A stretch of DNA of 64,000 nt from positions 124,001 to 188,000 of the forward strand of contig JAWBKZ010000004.1 in assembly GCA_038831005.1 (NCBI GenBank), given 5' to 3'. This document shows positions 22,766 to 29,584 of the stretch, in pieces. The stretch comes from Ignisphaera sp. (GTDB lineage: Archaea; Thermoproteota; Thermoprotei_A; Sulfolobales; Ignisphaeraceae). Numbering within the stretch: position 1 is the stretch's first letter; every line of letters starts with the position of its first letter. A program made the translations under genes and the position numbers. The notes below the pieces were generated by a model. The model saw nothing but the letters and a program-made list of their open reading frames with translations. It searched no databases and was not told where the DNA came from.

Positions 22766-23235
22766 TGAATTCACTATGTATCAACCCTTTAACACCAATA
22801 TTACACCCTATCTATAGCTTAATATCCTTGTAACCAGTAGTTAACGTGATGATGAAGCCGCTCCAAACCTAGACAAAGAGATGAGGATCCCGTGACGAAC
22901 TGAATCTTTATGTAGATCCAAGGACTATTAGACATACATCATTTATAGGCAGTTGAACTTGATGTACCAATAATTGGGTTCTTACATCTTGAACATTGCT
23001 TAGAGTGCTCCGTAATTAATAAGGTACCTAGGTCGGATATCTTCTGATTCAATTTTCTCTAAATGGATAATGATTACTCATAAACTAAATTAATCATTTT
23101 ACAGTATTTCTGGCAATAATGCAAGAATTTGATTTTCTTTCACCCAGAATGATGATGATTTCGATTGACACATATAGTTATTTAGTGTTACAGATTTTAA
23201 GCTTTCGGTACGGAAGCTTATTCTGGTGCGAAAGA
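22766..23235 (+). other. intergenic region with a candidate C/D box sRNA
   Basis: About 470 bases between ino1 and the archaeal ATPase gene. No supported protein gene; the only recognisable structure is the C/D box-like element near 22842-22907, listed separately. TATA-like AT tracts occur near 23070-23100. Confidence 0.4.
22842..22907 (+). ncRNA. candidate C/D box sRNA
   Basis: A perfect C box GTGATGA lies at 22846-22852 and a D box CTGA at 22900-22903. In between are a C'-like GAGATGA (22878-22884) and a weak D'-like CTAGA just before it. The C' to D guide interval is 15 bases (22885-22899). The overall span of about 58 bases is normal for archaeal 2'-O-methylation guide RNAs. Boxes are seen; function and target are not established. 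Confidence 0.42.
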
Positions 23236-24312
23236 ATGTTATTTGACCCAAAACCTAAGAGGAGAAAAGAAGATCTCTTCGATTTTGATGAAGAGTTCAA
23301 TATGTTGAAGAAGTTTCTGGGGCATCCTCTACTTGTTGTTACTGGCCTTAGGAGAACAGGTAAAACATCTCTGATACTGACTGTTCTTGAGGAGTCCAGT
23401 ATCCCTTACGTATTTGTTGATCTAAGGGGATTTGTTAGATCTTGGAGAGATCTCTACGAAACCCTTTCTGTAAGTATATCGGAATTTGTTTCAAGGATAT
23501 CTAGGTTTAGAGGTTTCTATGAATCGTTGGTAAAGATCTTGAGTATTGTGAAGGGCGTCTCTATTTCTGGGATAAGTATAGAGTTTAGCTGGGGTCGAGA
23601 TAGACCCCTTCTTACACAACTGTTTACAGCTCTAGATAGAGTTGCTGAAGAACATGGAGTGAAGGTGGTGATGGTTTTTGATGAACTTCAGAGAGCTGTT
23701 GGAGGTATAGGGATGGCTCTTCAAAACGCTTTAGCATATTCTTACGATCACCTAAAGAATATCTCGTTCATTATTAGTGGTTCAGAGATGGGTATTATAT
23801 ACCGTTTCTTAAAAGATCCTGAAGCACCTTTATATGGTAGAGCTTATCTAGAGGTTAAGACTAGGAGACTTAGAAGAGAAGAAGCTGTAGAATTCTTAGT
23901 GAAGGGCTTTAATGAAGTAAACTATGATGTAAGTATAGACAGAATCAATGAAGCAGTGGATAAATTGGATGGTATAATTGGTTGGCTTACATACTATGGT
24001 TATTCAACTGTATTTCAAGGTAAGAATATGGATGATATATGGAGAGATGCTGTAGAAATGGCTAAGAAAGAGCTTGAGAATTTTATCAACTATAGAGTAA
24101 GTAGAGAAAGGTATAGGATGGTTTTAAGGTTGCTTTCGTTAGGTGTAAGAGAATGGGGAAAATTGAAGAAGAAGCTCGAGGAATCTGAGGGCAAGTCTAT
24201 AAGTGATAGAGTTATATATGAGATTCTATATACACTAAGAAATCACTCTATAATAGACAATGAAAATAGATTCCTTGATCCATTACTAGAAGAAGCTGCA
24301 AAAGTTTTGTAG
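23236..24312 (+). CDS. archaeal ATPase family protein (P-loop STAND-like)
   Basis: From ATG 23236 the protein starts MLFDPKPKRRKEDLFDFDEE, the classic N-terminus of the archaeal ATPase family (PF01637). Walker A GLRRTGKTS and Walker B VVMVFDELQRAVGG follow, with a C-terminal winged-helix part (RMVLRLLSLGVREWGKLKKK). The in-frame ATG at 23119 would add 39 unconserved residues. These abundant crenarchaeal ATPases are of mostly unknown function. It is monocistronic, with two hairpins downstream. Confidence 0.88.
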   Translation: MLFDPKPKRRKEDLFDFDEEFNMLKKFLGHPLLVVTGLRRTGKTSLILTVLEESSIPYVFVDLRGFVRSWRDLYETLSVSISEFVSRISRFRGFYESLVKILSIVKGVSISGISIEFSWGRDRPLLTQLFTALDRVAEEHGVKVVMVFDELQRAVGGIGMALQNALAYSYDHLKNISFIISGSEMGIIYRFLKDPEAPLYGRAYLEVKTRRLRREEAVEFLVKGFNEVNYDVSIDRINEAVDKLDGIIGWLTYYGYSTVFQGKNMDDIWRDAVEMAKKELENFINYRVSRERYRMVLRLLSLGVREWGKLKKKLEESEGKSISDRVIYEILYTLRNHSIIDNENRFLDPLLEEAAKVL

Positions 24313-27034: not shown

Positions 27035-28414
27035 ATGGAGTTTGAGAAGAGTGGTGCTACAGGTTTTGTATTTAAGGATGAGGTAATAGCTGATTTGCTT
27101 GGAGATATCGAACCTGGTTCTGTTCTACTAGTTCTTGGTCATCCTGGTGCAGGTAAATCAACTTTTGCAGCTGGTATACTTTTTGAGAATTGTTTAAGAT
27201 TCAATGTTAAGGGTGTATACATAAGTCTTGCAGAAACAAGAGAAAAATTCTATAACTACATGAAGAAATTCTCCATGGATTTCGAATATGGCGAAAAAAA
27301 GAATCTCGTGGAATTCATACACATGCCTACTCTAGCAGGTAAAGAATTGCTAGAGGCTATAACTTCTACATTAAGCACCAAGATCTTTACCGAAGGCTAC
27401 TCTATAGCTGTTGTAGACTCGATAACACCTATACTAAACGTGCTTACAACAGATGAAGCTAGATCATACCTACATTCAACACTATACAACTTATCATCAG
27501 TAGCTAAAGCTCTTCTAATATTGATATCCGATCTACCTTTTGCTACAGAGACTGTTGATCTAAAGGGGCTAGAATTTATTGCTGATGCTGTTTTTGTATT
27601 CAAGACAAGAATAGAGAAGAGAATGATAAGCAGATTTATGGAGGTTAGAAAGTTTAGAGGAAAATCAATACCTATGGCAGAAATGCCGTTCGTAATAGAA
27701 GAAGGTAAAGGTATTAGATGCTTATTACCTCCAACAACAGCTGAAGTACCTTACTCTATGGCTATGACAAGCTATAGAGATGAATGCACCAATTCTGTTT
27801 GGGGCTCAATACTCTCAGGTACATATGTAGGTATAGTATCTAGATGCAATATCATACCCTTCTCTATATGGCTTCTCTTAACAAAGCTCATAATGAACTA
27901 TGGCTTAAACTATGGAATTCTAAGCTTTAGAGAATCCAAAGAAGTTACCAAAGAAGTGATAAGTAAATCAGCTCAAGTCCTAGGCATTCCTCCACACTAT
28001 ATTCTACAGAAATCCGTATTTATCGAAAGCCTTAACCCATCAATATTCTCTTCTCAACAGCTGGAGGCTATGCTTTATCGATTTGCTGAACAAAATATAA
28101 ACTTCTTTATAATTGATGGAGCTGAAGCTCTATATCTACACCATGATCCGCTATATGTTGATCAAATGCTTAGATCTCTTTCTACATATATTAAGAATGG
28201 ATTGATAACGGTATTCGAGCTAATCAATGGTGTATATACTCAGACCCAGACATCTAGATACGATATAGTTCATGAAATCATATGTAGAGAAAATACTGTA
28301 GAACACAACGTAGTTAGGGGACGTATCGCTGCTATCGATATAGCTTCATATAATCTTGTAACAAGAATTAGTGAAGAATCTATACTCAAATGCCTAAATA
28401 TTGTTCAGAGATGA
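27035..28414 (+). CDS. KaiC-like RecA-superfamily ATPase, two-domain, second domain degenerate
   Basis: Domain 1 (about 1-235) has Walker A GHPGAGKST at 35-43, the SLAETREKFYNYMKKF segment typical of KaiC-like proteins, and SIAVVDSITPIL as Walker B. Domain 2 (about 245-459) has the length and strand pattern of a second RecA fold (FFIIDGAEALYL resembles Walker B) but no visible Walker A. Start ATG 27035 sits behind GGGAGGAG. The GH5-like gene follows after 21 bases. Function unknown; KaiC-like ATPases usually act in signalling. Confidence 0.85.
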   Translation: MEFEKSGATGFVFKDEVIADLLGDIEPGSVLLVLGHPGAGKSTFAAGILFENCLRFNVKGVYISLAETREKFYNYMKKFSMDFEYGEKKNLVEFIHMPTLAGKELLEAITSTLSTKIFTEGYSIAVVDSITPILNVLTTDEARSYLHSTLYNLSSVAKALLILISDLPFATETVDLKGLEFIADAVFVFKTRIEKRMISRFMEVRKFRGKSIPMAEMPFVIEEGKGIRCLLPPTTAEVPYSMAMTSYRDECTNSVWGSILSGTYVGIVSRCNIIPFSIWLLLTKLIMNYGLNYGILSFRESKEVTKEVISKSAQVLGIPPHYILQKSVFIESLNPSIFSSQQLEAMLYRFAEQNINFFIIDGAEALYLHHDPLYVDQMLRSLSTYIKNGLITVFELINGVYTQTQTSRYDIVHEIICRENTVEHNVVRGRIAAIDIASYNLVTRISEESILKCLNIVQR

Positions 28415-28435
28415 TGAAGAGAGGTTCAAAACAGT

Positions 28436-29584
28436 ATGGATATTTACTACAGAGTTCGAGATTCAGAAATATATGTTGTTAGAGATGAAAAAGAAGACCC
28501 TCTATACATACTAGGTGTAACATGGGTTGGTTTTGAGTATCGTAGTTATGTAGTTCATGGGCTCCACATCAGAAATTGGGTTGAGATACTCCAGACAATT
28601 AAAAGTTTAGGTTTTAATGCAATAAGGCTACCCTTCTGTGCTAATTCTGTGAGACCTGGTGTTAAGCCTGCTCCTAGAGCTATAAGTTATGCCTATAATC
28701 GAGATCTCTATGGACTAGACTCTATATCTATAATGGAGAAGATTATAGCTAAAGCTGCTGAACTAGGTATATACGTACTTCTATGTTTTCATAACATAAG
28801 CTGTATAATTATGGAGCCTCTATGGTATACACAAACATTTAGTGAACAAAATACAATAGATACATGGATAGCCATTGCTAAAAGATTTGGAAAATACTGG
28901 AATGTTATAGGAGCAGAATTGTTTAATAATCCCCATGGTATTGGACCTAGACAAGCATACTATACAAGAGGTGATAGCGCTACCTGGGGTATGGGTAACC
29001 CGAAAACTGATTGGAATCTAGCTGCTGAAAGAATAGGTAAAGCTATACTAGAGGTGGCACCTCATTGGCTAATAATAGTTAAAGGAACACAGTACACCAA
29101 TACACAATCAGATAATGTACCACTGTATCCTGATTCAACGTTCTGGGGCGAGGATCTGAGAGCAGTGAAAGATTATCCTGTGAACTTACCTAGAGATAAA
29201 CTAGTCTATGGTGTTAATACCTATGGACCTGACATGTTTGTTCAATCCTATATCGATGATCCTAGCGTATTTCCTGATAATCTGTACCTTATATGGGATC
29301 AGAACTGGGGATATGTGAAGAAGCAGCTAGGATATCCAATAGTTATAGCTGAATTTGGTGGTAAATGTGGTGAAAGTGATCCTAGAGATGCTGTATGGCA
29401 TACCAAGTTTATTGAGTATCTTATCGATAATGATATGTGTTACTGGTTCTATCTTGCTCTAAATCCTGAGCATCCTGAAACAGGTGGGCTACTTAATAAT
29501 GATTGGGTTACAGTAAAACAGTATAAGTATGTTCTATTAAAGAAACTCATGGATTATTGCATAAATAGGTATAGCAGGAGGTAG
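28436..29584 (+). CDS. GH5-like cellulase-fold protein lacking the catalytic acid/base glutamate
   Basis: 382 residues with clear GH5 (endoglucanase-type) features: LGVTWVGFEYRS at the N-terminus, GFNAIRLPFC near 59-68, FHN near 118 and the nucleophile strand PIVIAEFGGKCG (E306). The family's acid/base motif NEP is replaced: AELFNNPHG, with Asn at position 165. The usual His of the HxY motif is also Asn (N261, in YGVNTYGPD). There is no signal peptide or membrane segment, so the protein should be cytoplasmic. Second gene of the KaiC-like operon. It may be a carbohydrate-binding or transferase relative. Confidence 0.85.
   Translation: MDIYYRVRDSEIYVVRDEKEDPLYILGVTWVGFEYRSYVVHGLHIRNWVEILQTIKSLGFNAIRLPFCANSVRPGVKPAPRAISYAYNRDLYGLDSISIMEKIIAKAAELGIYVLLCFHNISCIIMEPLWYTQTFSEQNTIDTWIAIAKRFGKYWNVIGAELFNNPHGIGPRQAYYTRGDSATWGMGNPKTDWNLAAERIGKAILEVAPHWLIIVKGTQYTNTQSDNVPLYPDSTFWGEDLRAVKDYPVNLPRDKLVYGVNTYGPDMFVQSYIDDPSVFPDNLYLIWDQNWGYVKKQLGYPIVIAEFGGKCGESDPRDAVWHTKFIEYLIDNDMCYWFYLALNPEHPETGGLLNNDWVTVKQYKYVLLKKLMDYCINRYSRR

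Follow-up and report, generated by a model that had tools for sequence, protein, structure and literature searches.

A GH5-fold protein encoded by Ignisphaera sp. lacks the glutamate that would serve as acid/base in a cellulase, and its gene lies directly downstream of a gene for a KaiC-like ATPase. This raises the question of whether the protein is still a hydrolase and, if it is not, what role it has been kept for. We addressed this question in the window, defined as the whole stretch of 64,000 nucleotides that was analyzed, and in related genomes; the features concerned are compiled in Table 1. We read the sequence, as the best explanation, as that of a GH5 pseudoenzyme that is cytoplasmic and does not hydrolyze glycosides.

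Table 1. Features of the window discussed in the text, with positions counted from its first nucleotide.
Feature	Positions	Strand	Details	Basis
KaiC-like ATPase gene, KaiC-A	27035..28414	+	459 aa; Pfam KaiC 3.5e-34	Pfam, AlphaFold2 model, alignment
Purine-rich AAGAGAGG in the gap from KaiC-A to GH5, possibly a ribosome-binding site	28417..28424	+		Sequence; function inferred
Putative GH5 pseudoenzyme gene	28436..29584	+	382 aa, ATG start, no signal peptide	Pfam, AlphaFold2, alignment
His44 codon	28565..28567	+	EGPh W82; Trp in all NEP homologs	Alignment
Asn165 codon (AAT)	28928..28930	+	Acid/base position, EGPh E201	Alignment
Lys216 codon	29081..29083	+	EGPh E252; Glu in all NEP homologs	Alignment
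Asn261 codon (AAT)	29216..29218	+	Active-site His position, EGPh H297	Alignment
Glu306 codon	29351..29353	+	Kept nucleophile, EGPh E342	Alignment
Leu340 codon	29453..29455	+	EGPh W377 (-1 platform); Trp in all NEP homologs	Alignment

The GH5 protein matched the Pfam Cellulase (GH5) family at 1.5e-36 (126.7 bits against a cut-off of 23.5). Its best solved relative was EGPh, the GH5_1 endocellulase of Pyrococcus horikoshii (PH1171; structures 3axx, 3qhn, 3qho, and 3qhm), at 2.5e-143 for 3axx and 57% identity, with an alignment that is free of gaps around the active site. The AlphaFold2 model (pLDDT 88.9, pTM 0.91) superimposed on 3axx with a TM score of 0.94, and the two proteins share the same fold. 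In a tree confined to GH5_1-type sequences, the protein grouped with EGPh and archaeal GH5_1 cellulases; 2ZUN is the representative structure of that subfamily (PMC3526467). The absence of a signal peptide, which the first-pass annotation considered odd for a relative of cellulases, was confirmed, as the open frame comprises just 388 aa and the end of KaiC-A leaves no room for one. This is weaker evidence for an unusual function than had been stated, however, because a GH5 paralog with the NEP motif in G009 likewise lacks a signal peptide and the feature is therefore not special by itself.

Retaining glycosidases need an acid/base for hydrolysis. EGPh is an active cellulase with E201, H297, W377, W82, and E252, whereas the GH5 protein has replaced all five. 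Here the Glu acid/base after strand beta4 is absent (N165, in the window and in all members of the NNP clade described below), as are the active-site His of the HxY motif (N261) and the -1 Trp (L340), whereas the Glu nucleophile on beta7 is present (E306). The gap-free alignment with EGPh bears out the earlier reading of NNP at Asn165, NTY at Asn261, and a kept Glu306, and reveals that the losses had been under-reported, since W82, E252, and W377 are replaced as well (by His44, Lys216, and Leu340). Arg64, His119 (on beta3), Asn164, Tyr263 (aligned with EGPh Y299), and Glu306 are common to EGPh and to all five NNP members. The column of N165 holds Ala in PDB entry 3qhn ('E201A-cellotetraose'), which according to its title is EGPh without its acid/base solved in complex with cellotetraose. 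No other Glu realigned to the acid/base position, where there is no gap. E161, four residues before it, corresponds to D197 in all NEP homologs, which indicates a substitution there instead of an alignment shift, and E161 is unlikely to have taken over the acid/base role.

These replacements are part of a broader change. Among 11 NEP homologs (nine archaeal and two bacterial, with EGPh characterized and the others predicted to be active from their residues), 83 positions are invariant, and 12 of these are altered in every NNP member while the other 71 are not altered clade-wide. In EGPh numbering, the altered positions are F69, W82 (to H), D153, R156, D197 (to E), E201 (to N), E252 (to K), H297 (to N or D), G341 (to A or T; the residue preceding the nucleophile), W377 (to L or N), S383, and D385. 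They are enriched at the catalytic strand ends of the barrel (9/25 versus 3/58; Fisher p = 0.0007), with a strand-window cut that was chosen after the data had been seen and other cuts giving p values from 0.006 to 1e-5. When restricted to the eight classical catalytic residues, the enrichment was not significant (3/8, p = 0.086). New residues at the active-site end (H44, S122, N165, and K216) are common to all five NNP members, and the positions of H297 and W377 vary within the clade. Judged from this alignment, the entire -1 region is rebuilt, well beyond removal of the acid/base. W82 and W377 serve as glucan platforms in Acidothermus E1 and EGPh, and their loss speaks against the usual mode of holding a cello-oligosaccharide. 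Such a ligand is therefore doubtful. The earlier suggestion that the protein binds ordinary sugars is likewise weakened, since the Trp platforms have changed along with the His and E252.

A search of 11 genomes of the genus identified five intact NNP genes in four genomes (G000, whose contig 4 holds the window; G004, with two copies; G005; and G009) and only a broken remnant in G001. All five intact genes encode NNP with AAT at N165, and N or D replaces the His. A close relative of the gene is present in record JAUQPB010000003.1; a scan of contigs recovered one NNP relative and two distant bacterial GH5 proteins, and a search of viral contigs yielded none. Other relatives of this type turned up in few genomes when 398 genomes from the phylum and 214 from the order were searched, and those aligned from these searches (a set that leaves out L076 and L077) all keep the E, H, and W. 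The NNP genes form one clade (support 100/100), with a single origin among archaeal EGPh-type (GH5_1) cellulases in Ignisphaera. Members of the clade gave a dN/dS of 0.129 where dS was 0.38; at larger distances dS is saturated, with the same excess of third-position changes. The NNP clade is under purifying selection.

The AlphaFold2 model of KaiC-A (pLDDT 84.5) found its best PDB matches in full-length KaiC (TM about 0.75). Of its two RecA/KaiC domains, the first has an intact Walker A (GHPGAGKS); no Walker A was found in the second in an alignment of 21-22 relatives, and in this respect KaiC-A differs from circadian KaiC. The double RecA-like architecture is common to archaeal KaiC-like ATPases, including those with inactivated iKaiC domains, and KaiC-A is a branch of a paralog family that has expanded in the genus. 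Orthologs of KaiC-A (56-58% identity) lie directly upstream, on the same strand, of all five intact NNP genes and form a clade of their own (support 100/99); the intact pairs are known in four genomes, two of which are nearly identical at the locus. The first-pass annotation had suggested checking other genomes for such a pairing. The two genes are separate and adjoining in each case, and their linkage is operon-like. Their spacing is 21 bp in the window; in both G004 and G005 it is 5 bp. In G009, the KaiC-A stop and the GH5 start overlap by 1 nt (TAATG); stop/start overlaps of this kind are a usual sign of coupled translation.

Long stretches of synteny connect the window with G004 and G005. 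In G009, the other neighbors of the window were not found within 48 kb around the pair, where the only matches were at about 29% identity; a gene ('c11') considered as shared synteny with G009 was rejected at that value. The pelota gene adjoins the pair in the window and lies about 714 kb away from it in G009. Elsewhere in the window, positions 23119-24312 encode a protein of the ATPase_2 family whose C-terminal domain is a winged helix of the MCM type. In G001, KaiC-A and GH5 are both fragments with stops (L052 on G001:C89; L053:9444-9931 on G001:C49), and the GH5 fragments still show NTY and a YLALN signature; an inversion apparently cut the GH5 gene, and the pair has decayed jointly. In the six remaining genomes of the genus, NNP genes and KaiC-A are both absent. 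A sister KaiC at 44-45% occurs in G003 and G009. G004 has two diverged copies of the whole pair (88% nucleotide identity), at contig ends (L002 on G004:C6 and L008 on G004:C3), and the pair on G004:C3 diverges from G005 more than its flanks do. The second copy may reflect tandem duplication or a mixture of strains.

About seven double-domain KaiC-like paralogs, with a second domain that lacks Walker A, are encoded per genome in the genus (L057, L058, L059, L060, L061, and L062 in G000; L046-L056 in other genomes). Genes neighboring these paralogs include those for a GH51-type protein (L060), GH20 (L047), GlmS/SIS (L058 and L048), and a family-5 solute-binding protein (SBP_bac_5; L055). This proximity of carbohydrate genes is suggestive. 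Other GH5 genes also occur in the genus. One in G009 (L081:382-1491; G009:C1:188381-189490) encodes all catalytic residues (NEP, HTY, and W) and, like the pseudoenzyme, has no signal peptide; by sequence, it is possibly a cytoplasmic active cellulase. A predicted active, secreted GH5 protein is encoded at a contig end in G000 (L023; G000:C1:1-12000), adjoining a Thr-rich secreted protein that resembles the tail of a multidomain cellulase of G005, along with two further membrane-anchored proteins and ABC transporter genes with a solute-binding protein. This is perhaps a cellulose-use locus.

Since the acid/base, the His, and the -1 Trp have all been lost, and lost in a conserved clade under selection, the GH5 protein is very probably not a hydrolase, and the non-hydrolytic role proposed in the first-pass annotation is well supported. 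From the strong selection and the obligate pairing, it would be a subunit of a switch built on KaiC; that the protein is a true partner of KaiC-A is likely, and the odds that it is a ligand-sensing regulator are about even. The sensory role proposed earlier gains from the invariable coupling to KaiC-A, with the sensing and the ligand themselves inferred. The pocket has been rebuilt and is yet conserved in the clade (H44, N165, and K216), suggesting a new or modified ligand. In the sequence of events that we favor, hydrolysis would have been lost with the acid/base Glu, the active-site His, and the -1 Trp; KaiC-A and the GH5 protein would be co-translated and bind each other; the remodeled barrel pocket would bind a small ligand, perhaps a sugar or sugar derivative; and the ligand-bound GH5 protein would tune the KaiC ring, which would relay the signal. 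That the ligand is a sugar is a guess from GH5 ancestry, aided by the carbohydrate genes that adjoin other KaiC paralogs. We give roughly equal weight for and against the view that a cytoplasmic GH5 pseudoenzyme has been kept as a dedicated partner of KaiC-A with a ligand-tuned KaiC ring. More tentatively, and with the balance somewhat against it, the two genes could form an archaeal signaling module: a dead cellulase would sense a ligand in the cytoplasm and exert allosteric control over a KaiC-type ATPase.

The barrel could instead be a structural or chaperone-like subunit that stabilizes or localizes the KaiC-like ATPase and binds no ligand. Obligate pairing with KaiC-A and loss of the sugar-binding Trps are both compatible with such a role, but the four new residues common to the five members hint that the pocket has kept a function, and we consider a purely structural role rather unlikely.

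Somewhat less probable is altered chemistry, in which the kept nucleophile serves activated donors with good leaving groups or a transglycosidase reaction. GH1 myrosinase works without an acid/base. All five members have kept the nucleophile, Arg64, His119, Asn164, and Tyr263, which could represent retained chemistry, as could the 71 invariant positions that escaped clade-wide change. However, His297 and the -1 Trp377 are lost, Lys has replaced E252, and the nucleophile is preceded by an altered residue, and the variation at the positions of H297 and W377 within the clade is unlike that of a tuned catalytic site. Moreover, the neighbors are KaiC and pelota, and none is recognizable as a gene for making an activated glycosyl donor. 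Of the earlier proposal of an activated-donor or transferase role, the kept nucleophile stands, and the altered platforms, His, and E252 make the role less likely.

We regard as improbable that a dead cellulase of unrelated function lies behind the KaiC gene by chance. The number of independent genomes is small, and synteny among the window, G004, and G005 is long; in G009, however, the pair has stayed together, with a 1-nt overlap, though all other neighbors changed, and both genes decayed jointly in G001. Nothing spoke in favor of a sequencing error or pseudogene, and its likelihood is negligible, since this Asn codon is two substitutions away from one for Glu and the codon is AAT, not GAA, in five genes, which have open frames without stops and a dN/dS of 0.13.

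The preferred reading, a non-hydrolytic partner of KaiC-A, has partial precedents. The acid/base has been lost from the GH5 module of Rsi24C from Clostridium thermocellum; this module binds cellulose and presumably signals via an anti-sigma domain (PMC3526467). The acid/base is lost in both GH5 modules, and that of Rsi24C serves signaling; as described, however, Rsi24C is an extracellular, cellulose-binding protein with a fused anti-sigma factor, whereas the Ignisphaera protein is separate, predicted to be cytoplasmic, encoded next to a KaiC ATPase, and without its Trp platforms. RsgI6-GH10 is similar in that activity is very low and binding is kept (PMC4711584). Other non-catalytic GH5 proteins comprise subfamily GH5_30 and a Xanthomonas subgroup of GH5_1 with an expansin module (PMC3526467), which have also lost catalytic residues but, by their descriptions, differ in lineage and architecture and have not been reported with KaiC. 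A literature search of partial coverage returned no report of KaiC paired with a GH pseudoenzyme. As far as we found, this pairing is new, and GH5 sensors that lack the acid/base were already known.

Archaeal KaiC-like ATPases have been proposed to be signal transduction hubs (Makarova 2017, as cited in PMC5847659). Few of their inputs are known, and the conserved pseudoenzyme described here is a concrete candidate for an input protein. It is also a further, independent instance in which a cellulase has become a non-catalytic protein. If the proposed function is correct, the pair would be an archaeal, KaiC-based counterpart of the bacterial GH5/anti-sigma biosensors, and would exemplify a KaiC family of Ignisphaera with a possible role in reading the state of carbohydrates.
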